Shown: piece after piece, positions 6,404 to 62,622 of the stretch
Layout of the letters: the number at the start of each line of letters is the position of its first letter
How positions within the stretch are numbered: position 1 is the first letter of the stretch
Position numbers and translations under genes: made by a program
Notes under the pieces: model-generated
What the model saw: only the letters and a program-made list of their open reading frames with translations
Databases searched by the model: none
Told to the model about the DNA's origin: nothing
Source of the DNA: Bradyrhizobium sp. SK17
GTDB taxonomy: Bacteria > Pseudomonadota > Alphaproteobacteria > Rhizobiales > Xanthobacteraceae
Reading direction: 5' to 3'
Assembly (NCBI RefSeq): GCF_002831585.1
Contig: NZ_CP025113.1
Span: 1,302,001-1,366,000 of the forward strand
DNA: 64,000 nucleotides

Positions 6404-7375
6404 ATGACGCTCAATGTCTCACGACGATCCTTGCTCGCGCTCGGCGCCGGTCTCGGCGCCAGCACACTCCTCGGCGGCACCGCGCAGGCGCGTGCGCCGA
6501 AGCTCGGCACACAGACTCCCTATTGGCACCGTTTCGTGCTCGGCGACGCCGAAGTGACCGTCGTCTCCGACGGCCCGCTTCCGCTCGGCGATCCCTCCGG
6601 CACCTTCACCGGCGTGCCGAAGGAAGAGGTGAAGAAGATGCTGTCCGACAACTTCCTCTCGCCCGACAATGTCGTGCTCGAGCAGAACTCGCCGATCGTC
6701 AACATGGGCGACAGGCTGATCCTGTTCGACACCGGCATGGGCACCTCGCAGGCGTTCGGCCCGACCACCGGGCGGCAGCAGAAGAGCATGAAGGAAGCCG
6801 GCATCAAGCCGGAGGACATCGACGCCGTCGTGCTGTCGCACGCGCATATCGACCACATCGGTGGCATCGTCGATGCCGACAACAAGCCGCTGTTCCCGAA
6901 TGCGCAGTACTACATCGCGCAGAGCGATCTCGATTTCTGGACCGACGAAGGCAAGATGGGCAGTCCGTTGAAGGACTTTGTCGTGCACGCCCGCAAGAAC
7001 CTGCTGCCGGTGCGCGACCGCATCGTGTTCTTCAAGGATGGCCAGGAATTCCTGCCCGGTGTGCAGGCGATCGCGGCGCCCGGCCACACCGTGGGCCACA
7101 CCATCTTCATGGTGAGCTCGGGCGGCAAATCCTTCGCCTTCCTCGGCGACCTGTCGCATCACGCGGTGCTTCTGCTGGAGCGGCCGCGGATGGAGTTCTC
7201 CTACGACACCGATCCGAAGCAGGCGGCGGCCTCGCGGGTCAAGCTGCTGGAGACGCTGGCCGTGAACAGGACGCCTGTCATGTCCTATCACTTCGCCTGG
7301 CCGGGCTACGGCCACGTCGCCAAGGCCGGCGAGGGCTACCACTATTATCCCGAGCCGATGCAGATGACGCTGTGA
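6404..7375 (+). CDS. Tat-exported metallo-beta-lactamase-fold hydrolase
   Basis: This is a 323-residue metallo-beta-lactamase superfamily protein. The N-terminus has a twin-arginine pattern (SRRSLLALG, Arg7-Arg8) and a hydrophobic stretch ending near AQA, so export by the Tat pathway is likely. The zinc motif HAHIDH is at residues 146-151, and later blocks GHTVGHT and LGDLSHH supply further ligands. The substrate cannot be told; the family includes lactonases and other hydrolases. The ATG at 6404 has GAGGAAG about 7 bp upstream, which decides it over an in-frame ATG at 6386. It appears to be a single gene and is followed by a long perfect hairpin. Confidence 0.85.
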   Translation: MTLNVSRRSLLALGAGLGASTLLGGTAQARAPKLGTQTPYWHRFVLGDAEVTVVSDGPLPLGDPSGTFTGVPKEEVKKMLSDNFLSPDNVVLEQNSPIVNMGDRLILFDTGMGTSQAFGPTTGRQQKSMKEAGIKPEDIDAVVLSHAHIDHIGGIVDADNKPLFPNAQYYIAQSDLDFWTDEGKMGSPLKDFVVHARKNLLPVRDRIVFFKDGQEFLPGVQAIAAPGHTVGHTIFMVSSGGKSFAFLGDLSHHAVLLLERPRMEFSYDTDPKQAAASRVKLLETLAVNRTPVMSYHFAWPGYGHVAKAGEGYHYYPEPMQMTL

Positions 7376-8991: not shown

Positions 8992-11286
8992 TCACCAGCG
9001 ATACGTCAGCTTGGCGATCGCCTTCCGACCCTCTGCGTAGAAGCAGCTCGTATTGCCGTAGCAGGCCGCCACGTAACGCGTGTCGGCGAGGTTGGTGACG
9101 TTGAGGGAGAGGCGATAATTGCCCCTGGTGTAGGCGACCAGCGCATCGACGACCGTGGACGCCGGCACCTTGAAGGTGTTGGCCTCGTTGCCGAAGGTCG
9201 ATCCGACATAGCGGACGCCGCCGCCGAACTGAACGCCGGCGAACGCACCGCCCTGAACGGTGTAATCGCCCCACAGCGAGAAGCGGTTGAGCGGCACGGT
9301 GGTCGGCGCCTTGCCGACATTGACCGGATCCTTGGTCACGACCGCATCGACATAGGCGTAGCCGCCGCGGATGTTGACGCCCTCGGCCAGCGTCGCAGTG
9401 CCCTCGAGCTCGACGCCGCGCGACCTGACCTCGCCGGTCTGCTCCGCAAAGTAGGATGGCGGCGCGTAGGTGACGACGTTGGACCGGGTCAGGTCGAAGG
9501 CCGCCAGCGTGATCAGCGCATTGATACCGACCGGCTGGTACTTGACGCCGACTTCGTACTGCACCCCGCTTTCCGGCTTCAGCAGCTCTCCGGCGGAGTT
9601 GATGCTCAGCACCGGCAGGAATGATTCCGAGTAGCTGAAATAGGGCGCGATGCCGTTGTCGAAATTGTACATCACGGCGGCGCGGCCGGTGAACGCCGAG
9701 GCGTCGGTCGACGTCGAGGTCTTCGCGAGGTTGTTGTCGAGGTCCGTGGTGACGAAATCCTGCCGTCCGCCGAGCAGGAACGACAACCGGCCGAGTTTGA
9801 TCTGGTCCTGCAAGTAAAGACCGGCCTGCGACTGCGTAATGCCGGTGTCGTCATACGGTCCGTTGTTGGTCCAGCTGTTGGCGTAGACCGGCGCAAACAC
9901 GTTGATCTTGCCGGTGCTGAAGCTCGAGGCCATGTCGCGGAACGAGGTGTTGCGGTAGTCGATGCCAAACAGCGTGGTGTGGCTCAGCATGCCGGTGACG
10001 AACTTGCCTTGCAGCTGGTTGTCGACCGCGAAGGAATTGATCGTCGAGTTGCCGCCGGCGCCGCCGCGCGACAGCAGGCCCGCGGCTTCGTCGGCCGCCG
10101 ACGCGTAGCCGGCGCCGTAGAAACTCCTCTGCTCGTTGTGCATCCACGAGTAGCGCAGGTTCTGGCGGAAGGTCAGCGCGTCGTTGATGTCGTGCGACAG
10201 CATGTAGCCGACCGAGGTCTGCTCGGTGTCGAACTGATTGAAGCCGGGCTCGCCGACGAACCGCGTGTTCGGAATGAAGCGGCCATTGTTGGCCCAGACC
10301 GTGCCGGACGGCGGCAGGAACTGGAGGCCCCAGCCGGTCCGCTCCTTCTGATAATTCGCCAGGAAGGTGATCGTGGTGTCCTCGTTCGGCTTCACCGTGA
10401 CGGCGGGCGCGATGAAGACCCTGTTGTCCTTGGTGTAATCGACCTGGGTCTCGCCGTCGCGCGCGACGCCGGTCAGGCGCCACAGCACCGTGCCTTCCTT
10501 GTTGGCGCGGCCACCGATATCGAACTCGCCCTGGAAGCGGTTGAAGCTGCCGCCGGACAGCGACACTTCCCCGAATTCACGCGCGGTCGGCAGTTTGCTG
10601 ACATAGTTGAGGATGCCGCCGGTGCCGCTGCCGCCGAACATCGCGGAAGAAGGCCCCTTCAGCACTTCGAGGCGCTCGGCGCCATAGGGATCGAGACCGA
10701 GGAAGTGAACATAGTTGCTGCTCGGCAGCCGCAGCCCGTCGAGATAGAGGCCGGGCATCGTCATGTCGAAGCCGCGGATCTGCAAGCCGCCGAAGCGGGT
10801 ATCCGAGCCGCCATTGACGTCGCCGCTGACGCCCGCGGTGTAGCGCAACGCCGCGCCCACCGATTCCGCACCCTGGTTCCTGACCTGGTCCGTCGTGATC
10901 ACCGAGATCGATTGCGGGGTTTCGATCAGCGGCGTGTCGGTCTTGGTCGCCGTCCCCGAACGCGTGGCAACGAATCCGACCACCGGTCCGCCGGCGCGCT
11001 CGCCGGCACCCGCGACGGATTGCGCCGGCGATTCGGTCGCCGCCTGCTGCGATCGAGCCGCGCGGTTGGTCCGGTTCGCGCGCGTGGTCGTCGCGCGACG
11101 AACCGGCTTTGCATTCGCAGCCGCCGCGCGCTGGCCCGGCGCATCCACGCTTACCGGCGGCAGTTCGGTTTGCGCCTCGGCACGTTCCACCGCGACGCCG
11201 GTTGCCAGGACGGCGGCGGTGCACAGACCGATCGTTCGCAGCAGCGGATGTTGGCGAATGGAATGCGAAGCAAGTCGGTCGATCAC
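8992..11286 (-). CDS. TonB-dependent siderophore receptor
   Basis: This is a 764-residue outer membrane receptor that would import a ferric siderophore using TonB energy. It has a signal sequence (ending near AEAQ), then a linker rich in Ala, Arg and Thr. The plug domain starts around TPQSISVITTDQVRNQGAESV and includes the IRGFDM and LEVLKGPSSAMFGGSGTGGILNYVSK blocks. A beta-barrel follows, ending in YRW with the terminal aromatic residue. The start is GTG at 11286. The PepSY gene follows on the same strand after 28 bp, so an iron uptake operon is likely. I saw no convincing Fur or Irr box upstream. The substrate cannot be named. Confidence 0.9.
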   Translation of the reverse strand: MIDRLASHSIRQHPLLRTIGLCTAAVLATGVAVERAEAQTELPPVSVDAPGQRAAAANAKPVRRATTTRANRTNRAARSQQAATESPAQSVAGAGERAGGPVVGFVATRSGTATKTDTPLIETPQSISVITTDQVRNQGAESVGAALRYTAGVSGDVNGGSDTRFGGLQIRGFDMTMPGLYLDGLRLPSSNYVHFLGLDPYGAERLEVLKGPSSAMFGGSGTGGILNYVSKLPTAREFGEVSLSGGSFNRFQGEFDIGGRANKEGTVLWRLTGVARDGETQVDYTKDNRVFIAPAVTVKPNEDTTITFLANYQKERTGWGLQFLPPSGTVWANNGRFIPNTRFVGEPGFNQFDTEQTSVGYMLSHDINDALTFRQNLRYSWMHNEQRSFYGAGYASAADEAAGLLSRGGAGGNSTINSFAVDNQLQGKFVTGMLSHTTLFGIDYRNTSFRDMASSFSTGKINVFAPVYANSWTNNGPYDDTGITQSQAGLYLQDQIKLGRLSFLLGGRQDFVTTDLDNNLAKTSTSTDASAFTGRAAVMYNFDNGIAPYFSYSESFLPVLSINSAGELLKPESGVQYEVGVKYQPVGINALITLAAFDLTRSNVVTYAPPSYFAEQTGEVRSRGVELEGTATLAEGVNIRGGYAYVDAVVTKDPVNVGKAPTTVPLNRFSLWGDYTVQGGAFAGVQFGGGVRYVGSTFGNEANTFKVPASTVVDALVAYTRGNYRLSLNVTNLADTRYVAACYGNTSCFYAEGRKAIAKLTYRW

Positions 11287-60572: not shown

Positions 60573-60707
60573 GGTTGAAATGCCAGCACTTTCACTGCGG
60601 TCGGGGTTGAGGGGCGCCGACCGTAAACCGATCAAGTCACCATAGATAGGGCGAGGTTAAGACGCGATTAACCATCGGCGCCGGGCACGATCGGCCGGCG
60701 CGTGATA

Positions 60708-60988
60708 TCAGCGCTGGTAATGCGTCAGTTTGAAAATTCTGGCCCAATCCTCGTCGGGGATGGCTCGTCTTCCGAAGTGGATGCCAGCGAGATCGCGTTC
60801 GGGGTCCGCGTATTCAGCGCAGCTTGGGCAGTAGTTGTGCCACCCGTTCTCGCGCTTACGGTTGTCCCAGCTTTCTGCGCGACTGATGTAGTTGACGGCT
60901 TGATGGAATGATCGGAGTCCAGTGTGGACCGTAGCGCCACACTCGCCGTCGCAATAGGCGACGTATTTCCCCCTTCTTGCCTAAACAT
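60708..60988 (-). pseudogene. Small zinc-ribbon-like protein, frameshifted as sequenced
   Basis: I do not recognise this family. The ATG at 60988 has GGAGGG ahead of it, a strong ribosome binding site. It opens with MFRQEG; the frame then breaks at the run of five G's (60967-60971 on the + strand as C's). With one more G it continues as GKYVAYCDGECGATVHTG and runs to a stop at 60708, a 93-residue protein. The middle carries four cysteines in a CxxxC...CPSC pattern (residues 13, 17, 54, 57), typical of a zinc ribbon. No start lies in the second frame. It sits in a more AT-rich stretch, beside an odd tRNA. Confidence 0.65.
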
Positions 60989-61224
60989 TTCTCCCTCCGG
61001 TTAGCCGATTTAGGAGAGCGGCCAGATGGGAGCACTTCTCGACGGCAGCTTGTTCATGGAGAACAAACCAGAACCTGTTGTAGTTTTCGTCAAGCAAAAG
61101 TTCAGTTTGAAATTATTGATGGTTTTGTAGGTCGCAAAATCCTACGGCTTAAGCCGTTGATTCGTTTAGTATTTTAATAGCTCACCCCCTTGAAAAAGCT
61201 ACGCATTCTCCTACAATAAAGGCG
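60989..61224. other. AT-rich spacer, no gene recognised
   Basis: Between the small zinc-ribbon gene and the tRNA. It has runs such as GAAATTATTGATGGTTTTG and AGTATTTTAATAG, more AT-rich than elsewhere in the window. No open frame has a convincing start or family match. The composition suggests acquired DNA. Confidence 0.5.
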
Positions 61225-61298
61225 TGCACCGGACTGGGCTCGAACCAGCGACCCCCCGTTTAGCAGACAGGCGCTCTATCCAGCTGAGCTACCGATGC
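61225..61298 (-). tRNA. tRNA with anticodon GCU, class I body (identity unclear)
   Basis: The 74-nt cloverleaf folds well: acceptor GCATCGG/CCGGTGC, D-stem GCTC/GAGC, anticodon stem CCTGT/ACGGG with loop CTGCTAA, T-stem GCTGG/CCAGT with loop TTCGAGC, and discriminator A. CCA is not encoded. The anticodon is GCU, which would read the serine codons AGC/AGU. But the variable loop is 5 nt (GGGTC), while tRNA-Ser normally has a long arm. The D-loop AGCTGGATA with A at 20 and C35/U36 looks like tRNA-Arg; one base change (UCU to GCU) would explain it. So it is a tRNA with mixed identity marks, or a decayed gene. Confidence 0.85.
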
Positions 61299-61316
61299 AC
61301 GCAGGCAGAAGGAAGT

Positions 61317-61340
61317 CCGGCGGGGCGCTACTCCCGCCGG
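61317..61340. other. Inverted repeat between tRNA and winged-helix-like gene
   Basis: CCGGCGGG (61317-61324) pairs with CCCGCCGG (61333-61340) around an 8-nt loop. It lies between the tRNA and the 3' end of the winged-helix-like gene. It could be a transcript end for that gene, but no T-run follows on that strand. Confidence 0.35.
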
Positions 61341-61389
61341 TCGTCGTGATCAGAACTAGCTGGTGTCGTGCACGGCTCGGCCCTCCTAG

Positions 61390-61998
61390 TTACTTGAGTA
61401 GATCGAGAAGACCCGGCGGTGGATCGCCGGGTTTTTTCGTATCCGCAGGAATCTGCGGCACGAAAAACCATACGTGCCCCAAGCGGCGCACTAGTCCCTT
61501 CTTGAGAAGTCGGTACAGCGTCATACCGACGGTTTTCTCATGAATTTCAATATTATAAGTCTGCTGGATATAATCGCGCAGCGGCGCGGCCTTTGAGCCA
61601 TCGGCTGCGGCTTCTTGCAGCCGCTCTAGCAGAATCTCTTGGATGGTCGGCATCTGCGGCTTCGGCGGCAATCCGTGTCCGGCCTCGCCTTCGGTTGAGC
61701 CCTCAGCCTGCTCGAGCGTGGCCGTACGGGGCACGAAGCCCTCCAGCTTGAGCACCTCGAAAACGCGCTCACGGTACTTTTCCATGAGGGCGGTCCACGC
61801 CTCATCGGTCTCGATGTCACAGCCAAATATCCTCAACGACGCTTCGCAGGTCGCGATGATCCTGCTCTCCTCTTTGATCTCGGCTTTCGCCTGCTCGATG
61901 ACCTTCTCAGCGGCATGCCTGCGGAAATAGGCGCGCGCATGCTTGACCATGATGGCCAGCACACCCGCGTCATCAAGAGAATCGGTGGTAAATGTCAT
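61390..61998 (-). CDS. Winged-helix-like protein of unknown function
   Basis: I do not recognise the family. The 202-residue protein has a helical N-terminal half, then a linker, and a C-terminal segment IHEKTVGMTLYRLLKKGLVRRLGHVWFFVP that looks like a winged-helix DNA-binding unit. The last residues are Pro-rich (TKKPGDPPPGLLDLLK). The ATG at 61998 (MTFTTDSL) is the best start; the frame upstream is not coding-like. Base use is less GC-rich than in the core genes, and it lies by the tRNA, so it may be acquired. Confidence 0.7.
   Translation of the reverse strand: MTFTTDSLDDAGVLAIMVKHARAYFRRHAAEKVIEQAKAEIKEESRIIATCEASLRIFGCDIETDEAWTALMEKYRERVFEVLKLEGFVPRTATLEQAEGSTEGEAGHGLPPKPQMPTIQEILLERLQEAAADGSKAAPLRDYIQQTYNIEIHEKTVGMTLYRLLKKGLVRRLGHVWFFVPQIPADTKKPGDPPPGLLDLLK
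61411..61437 (+). terminator. Intrinsic-terminator-like hairpin on the + strand
   Basis: ACCCGGCG-GTGGAT-CGCCGGGT followed by a T-run gives a perfect 8-bp stem and U-tract on the + strand. It lies in the 3' end of a - strand gene. No + strand gene precedes it, so it might end an antisense or small RNA. Confidence 0.4.
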
Positions 61999-62199
61999 GG
62001 GTTTGATATATCGCACAATCCGCGTTCCTAAGCAATCTGAATTAGGAAGCTGATTGCTTATCACCGATTCCCACGAACTAATGCCGGTCGCGGGCGATCT
62101 ATCGGCGCTCTTCGGAGGATAGTTTGCGGGCGCCGGCCTTTCCGCACATCTTGCCACCGCCGCGCCGTCAGGGCGCTCATCATCACCGGCGAACGCGAA

Positions 62200-62622
62200 G
62201 TGCTGTTGTTGCGGATTCGTCCGCCACATGGCGGCGACACCTTCTGGGTTGCTCCGGGCGGTGGCATCGAGGGTGACGAGACGCCTGAAGCGACGCTGCG
62301 GCGGGAATTGGCCGAGGAAGTCGGGTTGACCGCGTTCGCGCACGGTCCTGTCGTCTGGCGGCGCCATCACACCTTCAATTGGGGCGGCCGGCGGTTCTCC
62401 CAGAAGGAAGAGTACCGGATCGTTCACGCTGACCGATTCGAGCCTGTGATGGCCGACCAGGCCGAAGCGGCGGTGCTCGACTGCTTCCGCTGGTGGCCGA
62501 TCGCCGAGCTGTCCGGCGCGGAGGAGCGGCTGACGCCGCTGTCGCTCGCCGCGATTCTCGAGCGCTATTTGCGCGACGGCGCGCCGGCCGAAATTCCGGA
62601 CGAGGAAGTCCTGATCGACTGA
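62200..62622 (+). CDS. NUDIX hydrolase, start uncertain
   Basis: This NUDIX hydrolase cleaves nucleoside diphosphates linked to some moiety X. The Nudix box is GGGIEGDETPEATLRRELAEEVGL, with the conserved glycine and glutamates. The visible frame from GTG at 62200 gives 140 residues, but coding-like sequence continues upstream in the same frame (RRAVRALIITGEREV), which is the first strand of the fold. No standard start codon was found there, so the true start is open. The substrate is unknown. It is followed by a diguanylate cyclase. Confidence 0.82.
   Translation: MLLLRIRPPHGGDTFWVAPGGGIEGDETPEATLRRELAEEVGLTAFAHGPVVWRRHHTFNWGGRRFSQKEEYRIVHADRFEPVMADQAEAAVLDCFRWWPIAELSGAEERLTPLSLAAILERYLRDGAPAEIPDEEVLID

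Follow-up and report, generated by a model that had tools for sequence, protein, structure and literature searches.

To our knowledge, bacteria offer few examples of natural missense tRNAs. The closest parallel known is tRNA-ProX (tRNA-ProA, -ProN, and -ProT), an actinobacterial family of Streptomyces and Kitasatospora that a review counts among the first natural examples of such tRNAs (PMC11415595). The tRNA gene discussed here lies on the minus strand at positions 61,225–61,298 of the window, by which we mean the whole analyzed stretch of 64,000 nt from Bradyrhizobium sp. SK17. It resembles tRNA-ProX in being a natural bacterial tRNA whose body belongs to one amino acid and whose anticodon belongs to another, and A34 anticodons occur in tRNA-ProX as they do in the ACU members of the family described below (PMC11415595). 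Unlike tRNA-ProX as portrayed there, however, the present family has arginine determinants, serine AGY codons, and U33 instead of A33, occurs in another phylum, and sits on transposons; the longest ORF within seven delimited elements has 381 aa, too short for a synthetase, and none was read as a synthetase by eye. The identity elements of one amino acid are thus conserved together with the anticodon of another, as expected of a dual-identity tRNA, but a dedicated neighboring synthetase gene was not found. A literature search covering titles and the beginnings of abstracts gave, among the matches listed, no description of a transposon-borne missense tRNA. The dual-identity kind is known; judging by the literature searched, what is new is the pairing of this identity with these codons, the carriage on a transposon, and the association with a winged-helix partner.

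ARAGORN called a tRNA-Ser(GCT) at 61,224–61,298 on the minus strand as its sole tRNA in the window, and the Rfam model RF00005 matched 61,225–61,298 with 59.1 bits (cut-off 29) and E = 3.2e-10 over the window, a value that excludes chance as the source of the call; the tRNA is real. Nothing else in the window matched Rfam at its cut-offs. Read 5' to 3', the tRNA is GCATCGG TA GCTC AGCTGGATA GAGC G CCTGT CTGCTAA ACGGG GGGTC GCTGG TTCGAGC CCAGT CCGGTGC A, with an acceptor stem of 7 bp (one U.G), a D stem of 4 bp, an anticodon stem of 5 bp (one U.G), and a variable loop of 5 nt, which makes it a class I tRNA. The original prediction had described a fully paired cloverleaf with this short variable loop, the anticodon loop CTGCTAA, A20, C35, U36, and A73, and the sequence bears this out, two U.G pairs being included among the stems. 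The anticodon GCU (61,262–61,264) reads AGC/AGU, and A20, the bacterial arginine identity base as placed by the family alignment and the host survey, lies at 61,279. At the 3' end, the sequence continues as ACGCC, so that CCA is not encoded, whereas CCA is encoded in 46 of the 46 other distinct host tRNAs that ARAGORN called outside a tRNA array. Here, A73 and the trailer CGC (61,222–61,225) can pair with the leader GCGT (61,299–61,302), which would extend the acceptor stem by four pairs, and the same holds for the relatives G093 and G135. A plain single-strand fold did not return the cloverleaf as the minimum-energy structure, and support for the cloverleaf therefore comes from the covariance model and from covarying bases in the relatives.

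SerRS recognizes the long variable arm of tRNA-Ser. The window tRNA shares the anticodon GCU with bacterial tRNA-Ser(GCU) but differs from it in lacking that arm, in carrying A73 where the host tRNA-Ser(GCU) has G73, and in its arginine-type D loop; the host tRNA-Ser(GCU) is a separate gene (L041). With bacterial tRNA-Arg, the window tRNA shares A20, C35, U36, A73, and the short variable loop, but the R34-C35-U36 of its family reads serine codons instead of AGA/AGG, and the host arginine tRNAs outside the array have G73. According to the literature, the bacterial arginine determinants are A20, C35, U/G36, and A/G73, with A20 as the main one for E. coli ArgRS (PMC9976931); the window tRNA has all of them and lacks an arginine-codon anticodon. 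The host genome (G000; 8.29 Mb, two contigs) yielded 62 tRNA matches, among them a normal class II tRNA-Ser(GCU) (L041), tRNA-Arg(UCU) (L021), tRNA-Arg(CCU) (L020), and further arginine tRNAs (CCG, UCG, and ACG), which settles in the affirmative whether ordinary tRNA-Ser(GCU) and tRNA-Arg(UCU) exist elsewhere in this genome. The host chromosome also carries an array of 13 divergent tRNAs (G000:C1:5245584-5247507; L031). When base 20 was surveyed in 60 distinct host tRNAs by the simple rule of taking the nucleotide that follows the first GG of the D loop, it proved to be A only in the six arginine tRNAs and the window tRNA (one array tRNA could not be placed). The earlier argument that the missing long arm speaks against SerRS and that A20, C35, and U36 favor ArgRS is supported by this restriction of A20 to arginine tRNAs in the genome, by the invariance of A20 in the family, and by the published determinants (PMC9976931). 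The accompanying claim of an arginine-like body holds for the determinants, but the overall body is nearer to the host tRNA-His than to tRNA-Arg.

In the window, the tRNA is embedded in what is left of an IS1-like transposable element, a remnant that extends from 60,716 to approximately 62,138. Two relatives, G010 (L262) and G004 (L263), have an empty site in which the flanks of window positions 60,716 and 62,154 are ~40–56 bp apart, and this comparison places the left junction exactly after CAGCGCT. One terminal inverted repeat survives, GGTAATGCGTCAGTTTGAAAA at 60,716–60,736 on the plus strand, with 4 substitutions relative to the 21-bp repeat of the intact L141 element, and a second, right repeat was searched for in the window element but not found. 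All that remains of the transposase gene is its start (ATGAACAAGCTGCCG...; 61,025–61,057, minus strand), recognized by eye from the transposase ORF start in L140 and L141; a transposase search of the host genome at E ≤ 0.001 gave no match. The copy in the window consequently lacks the transposase and the pair of ends that define an intact IS1 transposon, and sits in a dead element. Upstream of the tRNA, all on the minus strand, terminator scoring revealed a terminator-like hairpin of 8 G-C pairs with a poor T tail directly before the gene (61,317–61,340), preceded by a possible leader ORF, GTG CAC GAC ACC AGC TAG (VHDTS), with a Shine-Dalgarno-like AGGAGG (61,356–61,373), and by the gene of a 202-aa protein (61,390–61,998). 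No promoter-like site was found on the minus strand of 60,700–62,200. When the window element was aligned with L140 and L141 by blastn, only 61,214–61,369, that is, the tRNA and ~70 bp upstream of it, aligned (94 % and 92 %), and with L191 (G116) there was no alignment.

The predicted model of the 202-aa protein (mean pLDDT 75.8, pTM 0.37) combines a long N-terminal helix (residues 7–57) with a C-terminal winged helix, and Foldseek listed mostly winged-helix domains for it, none at E ≤ 0.001. The one homologue of this protein that bears an organism name comes from Bradyrhizobium. Its ORF is open in the window and retains the residues that are invariant in eight relatives. A search of the winged-helix family against Pfam at E ≤ 0.001 returned no family, and the family was not found in viral contigs.

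By blastn (E ≤ 1e-14), the window tRNA was detected in 3 of 265 genus genomes, namely G000, G135 (97 %), and G093 (92 %). In G135 and G093, it sits between a winged-helix gene and an IS1-like transposase gene, and the G093 anticodon arm, CCTGG TTGCTAC CCGGG, differs at pair 31–39 on both sides (G-C versus T-A in G000 and G135) with GCT kept. Searching the genus with the two neighbor proteins (257 genomes each) uncovered the winged-helix protein in 8 and the transposase in 96 genomes. On the fetched loci L142–L179, ARAGORN found tRNAs at ten places, all reading AGY and none AGA/AGG, with GCU at G000, G135, G093, G116, G190, G108, and G164 and ACU at G110, G010, and G081; because of a D-loop insert, ARAGORN reports no anticodon for G116, whose GCU was read by eye, and the G164 tRNA appears by eye to be irregular in the D loop, the T loop, and the anticodon stem. 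A tRNA is present at 8 of the 30 genus transposase loci (L150–L179) and absent at the other 22, 18 of which were scanned with Rfam up to E = 1 with no tRNA match. Across the order, 28 of the 347 genomes searched had a transposase match at E ≤ 1e-80. Among 28 newly fetched loci, one (L235, from another family) bears a GCU tRNA that lies within the repeats and follows a winged-helix gene; the cargo tRNA is absent in 27, and two others have ordinary tRNAs outside the element.

Leaving aside G000, G093, and G135, which were known through the tRNA itself, eight tRNAs were reached via the neighbor proteins alone (G116, G190, G108, G110, G010, G164, G081, and L235), and all eight have an RCU anticodon, a short variable loop, and A20. 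The strict A20-RCU pattern matched 2 of 384 genomes of the class outside G000. Comparison of the tRNA with plasmids and phages by blastn gave nothing above the 80–90 % identity band (best match 85.1 %; best 20 of 108 and best 20 of 112 matches). Among the genomes surveyed, which are single representatives, the family is rare, though it is kept in relatives, so that a lack of conservation, which had been named in advance as a reason to abandon the idea, is not what was found.

The intact relatives document how the gene moves. In L141 (G093), perfect 21-bp inverted repeats GGTCGTGCCTCAGTTTGAAAT at 6601–6621 and 9689–9709 bound the element, which is flanked by the direct repeat GGAAAGAG. Both terminal repeats were found in seven relatives, some with one or two differences between the ends, and the target duplication of 8 bp is perfect in six (G093, G116, G108, G190, G010, and G081) and matches at 7 of 8 bases in G135; the end search recovered one end at G164 and none at G110. 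Since repeats and target duplications enclose the tRNA, it travels inside the element and is transposon cargo. Target duplications of 8–9 bp are typical of the IS1 family, and the intact relatives combine terminal inverted repeats and a duplication of this size with a transposase that reaches 35.5 bits for Pfam DDE_Tnp_IS1 (cut-off 24.1). They thus resemble IS1-family elements with passenger genes in the domain, the inverted repeats, and the 8-bp duplication, but differ in that the transposase stays below the cut-off of the NCBIfam IS1 equivalog (74.1 bits versus 100) and in that the passenger is a tRNA.

A winged-helix gene precedes the tRNA in 8 of 11 cassettes (the window, G093, G116, G135, L235, G108, G190, and G110). 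As read by eye, the preceding gene is integrase-like in G081 and G164 and different again in G010, and the G110 tRNA lies near a serine-recombinase-like gene in a locus devoid of an IS1-like transposase. PADLOC pointed to defense-like cargo in two elements, a PD-T4-5-like gene in G093 (E = 1.2e-14) and an NYN nuclease in G116 (1.4e-7); other cargo varies by element and includes, as read by eye from translations, DUF3800-like and YafQ-like proteins. Stable hairpins are predicted upstream of the tRNA in the relatives, too. The leader ORF is longer in G093, G116, and G135 (MSKHRYDTS / MSRHRYDTS) and contains an AGY codon in G000, G093, G116, G135, and G110; leaders lacking AGY were seen in G190, G108, G402, and G010, and none was reported for G164, G081, L227, and G884. 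A leader ORF with AGY codons was accordingly rejected as a general rule, since the leaders differ between clades and several lack such codons.

The transposase genes use AGY in the ordinary manner. In eight tRNA-bearing transposase genes, AGY accounts for 5 to 10 of 17 to 27 serine codons, which led us to reject avoidance of AGY by the transposase. In an alignment of transposase genes only, from which L156 and L177 had been dropped beforehand, the positions at which the tRNA-bearing transposases have AGY are mostly Ala, Ser, Asp, or Thr in other sequences and Arg in 28 of 1096 residues; a transposase gene written with AGY as arginine was rejected on this count. With AGY coded ordinarily, the transposase would gain nothing from arginine at these codons and would itself be misread.

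For the analysis of selection, 17 tRNAs were aligned: those of the ten genus places, L235, L227, L228, the two tandem tRNAs of L127, L257, and L258. A20, U33, C35, and U36 are invariant in all 17, of which L257 and L258 had been found by a pattern demanding A20 and RCU, and L227, L228, and one L127 tRNA by a pattern demanding RCU (the second L127 tRNA being the neighbor of the first); base 34 is G or A. The long variable arm is absent throughout, and the mean column identity of the bodies is 65 %. Standard pairs occupy 97.2 % of 357 stem cells (100 % in the acceptor stem, 88.2 % in the anticodon stem), 17 of 21 stem pairs have changed on both sides, and covariation is 0.716 as compared to 0.185 in shuffles. 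By eye, the ACU tRNAs of G010, L227, and L228 have a common loop, CUACUAAGU, and mismatches at 29–41 and/or 30–40. The conserved RCU anticodon, the conserved A20, and the covarying stems suggest, at the level of sequence, that the tRNA is under selection.

The bodies themselves were compared with the nearest host tRNA after masking of the anticodon. An arginine tRNA is nearest for 10 of the 17 (G190, G108, G110, G010, G164, G081, L235, L227, L127b, and L258), L257 is an Ile/Arg tie, tRNA-His(GUG) is nearest for G000, G093, and G135, and Asp, Lys, and Phe tRNAs are nearest for L228, L127a, and G116, respectively. As a control, Arg was nearest for 2 of 41 non-Arg host tRNAs; the test is coarse, with the own isotype nearest in 28 of 39 host tRNAs that have an isotype partner. 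These counts imply that several bodies of the family are arginine-derived. The window tRNA as a whole is not closest to arginine tRNAs, and its body, as far as this comparison indicates, is not clearly arginine-derived, yet it bears the arginine determinants.

The explanation that we consider fairly probable is that of a functional missense tRNA, charged by ArgRS and reading the serine codons AGC and AGU, which is carried as transposon cargo, is made in a condition-dependent manner, and is toxin- or defense-like in nature. ArgRS would recognize A20, C35, U36, and A73, and because all bacterial arginine determinants are present, we infer charging with arginine and insertion of arginine at AGY, which the GCU anticodon would read. 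The family rides as cargo on IS1-like, sometimes IS1595-like, transposons. Transcription probably continues from the winged-helix gene through the short leader ORF and the terminator-like hairpin, and such read-through would limit production of the tRNA to certain conditions; the gene order of winged-helix gene, short ORF, hairpin, and tRNA suggests that it is regulated. Once made, the tRNA would cause some serines to be replaced by arginine throughout the proteome and may thereby act as toxin-like or defense-like cargo. As the transposase shows no use of AGY as arginine, misreading would target the cell or an invader. Arginine charging, expression and its control, misreading, and a benefit of the tRNA are all inferred from sequence here. 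Should this reading be true, the label tRNA-Ser(GCT) that gene finders assign can hide a gene of another kind. A conserved tRNA with arginine bases and a serine anticodon, moved by transposons and placed behind a leader that looks controlled, would make horizontally transferred, programmed misreading testable with a small construct.

The defense-like cargo of G093 and G116 (PD-T4-5-like and NYN nuclease) and the retention of R34-C35-U36 while the bodies differ would also fit a decoy or sensor, in which the GCU/ACU loop is kept for binding or cutting by, for example, an anticodon nuclease or a regulator of the element, and host tRNA-Ser(GCU) is spared or reported. We regard this as unlikely, as a decoy would need neither A20 nor a perfectly paired, compensated acceptor stem, yet both are kept, and the cargo genes change between elements while the tRNA stays. 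The tRNA might instead be charged with another amino acid, such as histidine in the window clade, or with serine, which would make it a different missense tRNA or an ordinary AGY helper. The bodies of the window tRNA, G093, and G135 are indeed nearest to the host tRNA-His(GUG), with which they have A73 in common; HisRS, however, depends on the anticodon, and the histidine anticodon GUG is absent. Charging with serine is countered by the lack of the long variable arm in 17 of 17 tRNAs, and any charging other than with arginine by the occurrence of A20 in only the arginine tRNAs and the window tRNA of the genome, so that this alternative appears quite improbable.

In elements that have both an upstream gene and a transposase, the tRNA lies between them, and leader and trailer can pair in some, which is compatible with a structural element whose tRNA shape serves as an RNase P/Z site that separates the two transcripts and does no decoding. 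A processing site would, however, have no reason to retain R34-C35-U36 and A20 across bodies of 65 % mean column identity, and 22 of 30 genus transposase loci do without a tRNA (none emerged in the 18 that were checked by Rfam to E = 1); we consider it very improbable. The least probable of these alternatives is a decayed, functionless copy of a host tRNA that was captured by the transposon. The dead element in the window, the missing CCA, the detection in just 3 of 265 genus genomes at E ≤ 1e-14, and the irregular G164 copy would agree with decay. Against this stand the compensatory change at 31–39 between G000/G135 (T-A) and G093 (G-C) with GCU kept, the strong covariation in the family, and the fact that the tRNA is the best-kept part of the window element at the DNA level, and the decay reading is disfavored. 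Of the three options that the original prediction had offered, a decayed tRNA-Arg(UCU) therefore falls, the more so as relatives keep anticodon, A20, and stems with compensatory changes and the host tRNA-Arg(UCU) is intact; a misreading tRNA or one with a special use remain.

Beyond the transposon family, pattern scans for class I GCU tRNAs found 47 stretches across 84,980 species and 9 among viral contigs, and an ACU scan found 8, as compared to 11 and 12 stretches in control scans for NGA and NAG (four anticodons each). A20 is present in 28 of 46 distinct RCU bodies of the genome GCU set and in 6 of 7 and 5 of 5 of the remaining sets (viral and ACU), whereas it was seen in 1 of 7 (NGA) and 0 of 5 (NAG) distinct control bodies. 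Class I tRNAs with AGY anticodons thus tend to be of arginine type, and the few controls do not. With a fully paired acceptor stem in 15 of 46 genome RCU bodies, and hence an incompletely paired one in many matches, the wider set is mixed. A tight linkage of class I RCU tRNAs to IS1/IS1595 transposases was rejected, 9 of 64 lying within 2 kb versus 1 of 23 controls, which is not clearly above. Rfam at its cut-offs detected no GOLLD- or ROOL-type RNA on the pattern loci.

Several class I GCU tRNAs of these scans, unrelated to the family (L092, L099, L114, L120, L129, L134, and L097) lie near a stretch complementary to 11–14 nt of their own anticodon arm. The stretch starts 41–69 nt downstream of the tRNA in six loci, and the order is reversed in L097. 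It tracks each tRNA's own stem. The longest complement elsewhere is 4–8 nt, and such stretches are absent from 31 ACU, NGA, and NAG loci and from 11 transposon loci; antisense RNA was, correspondingly, not found at the transposon-borne tRNAs (11 loci). L114 comprises two units and a variant third, which also hold HicB/HicA-like genes (by eye); here, the complement has a sigma-70-like promoter before it and a terminator-like hairpin after it, both scored, an arrangement judged by eye at the other loci. As L092 and L114 are alike, and L129 and L134 as well, the independent cases are fewer. When viral contigs were scanned with a wider antisense pattern, L129 and L134 came up again, along with two chance matches within a coding frame (L270 and L271), and a literature search revealed, among the matches listed, nothing resembling a tRNA with an antisense to its own anticodon arm. 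Judged from their layout, the complement-bearing loci possibly pair a toxic tRNA with an antisense RNA that serves as its antitoxin. A broader reading, tentative and in our view rather doubtful, would see in tRNAs of arginine identity that read AGY a missense weapon that recurs in mobile DNA and is under selection: stable, toxic RNAs held in check by the winged-helix gene and attenuator on transposons and by antisense RNA in unrelated bacteria and viral contigs. If true, it would amount to a toxin–antitoxin principle whose toxin rewrites the genetic code.

A further set of A20 RCU tRNAs has an acceptor mismatch within positions 1–3, some with further ones (L086, L093, L100, L102, L104, L105, L107, L108, L128, L133, L136, L221, and L226), and several are followed by a terminator (by eye); these are perhaps attachment-site hybrids. 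Another class I GCU tRNA, with T20, occurs in the same genus (L187–L190, L089, and L116, with ACU in L190), and in L089 and L116 it is adjoined by a second tRNA with two A.A mismatches in its acceptor stem. Matched tRNA cores of the genus genomes G195 and G197 are identical to those of L089 and L116, both Bradyrhizobium records. In a Phycisphaeraceae MAG (L127, 1311–1513), class I GCU and ACU tRNAs, both with A20, stand in tandem near a divergent IS1-like transposase. L259 of G884 pairs a GCU arginine-type tRNA with a class II-looking, Leu-like (A73) tRNA that has the glycine anticodon ACC (676–751 and 1222–1307), a second kind of mismatch between body and anticodon, in a cassette that also contains a small winged-helix-like gene and an IS1595 transposase. 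In L260 of G953 (1563–1732), a tRNA with the anticodon TGC, U73, and an unusual D arm adjoins a GCU arginine-type tRNA downstream of an IS1595 transposase. Finally, L206 is a class I tRNA with A20 and the serine anticodon CGA that lies 1.1 kb from an IS1595-type transposase.
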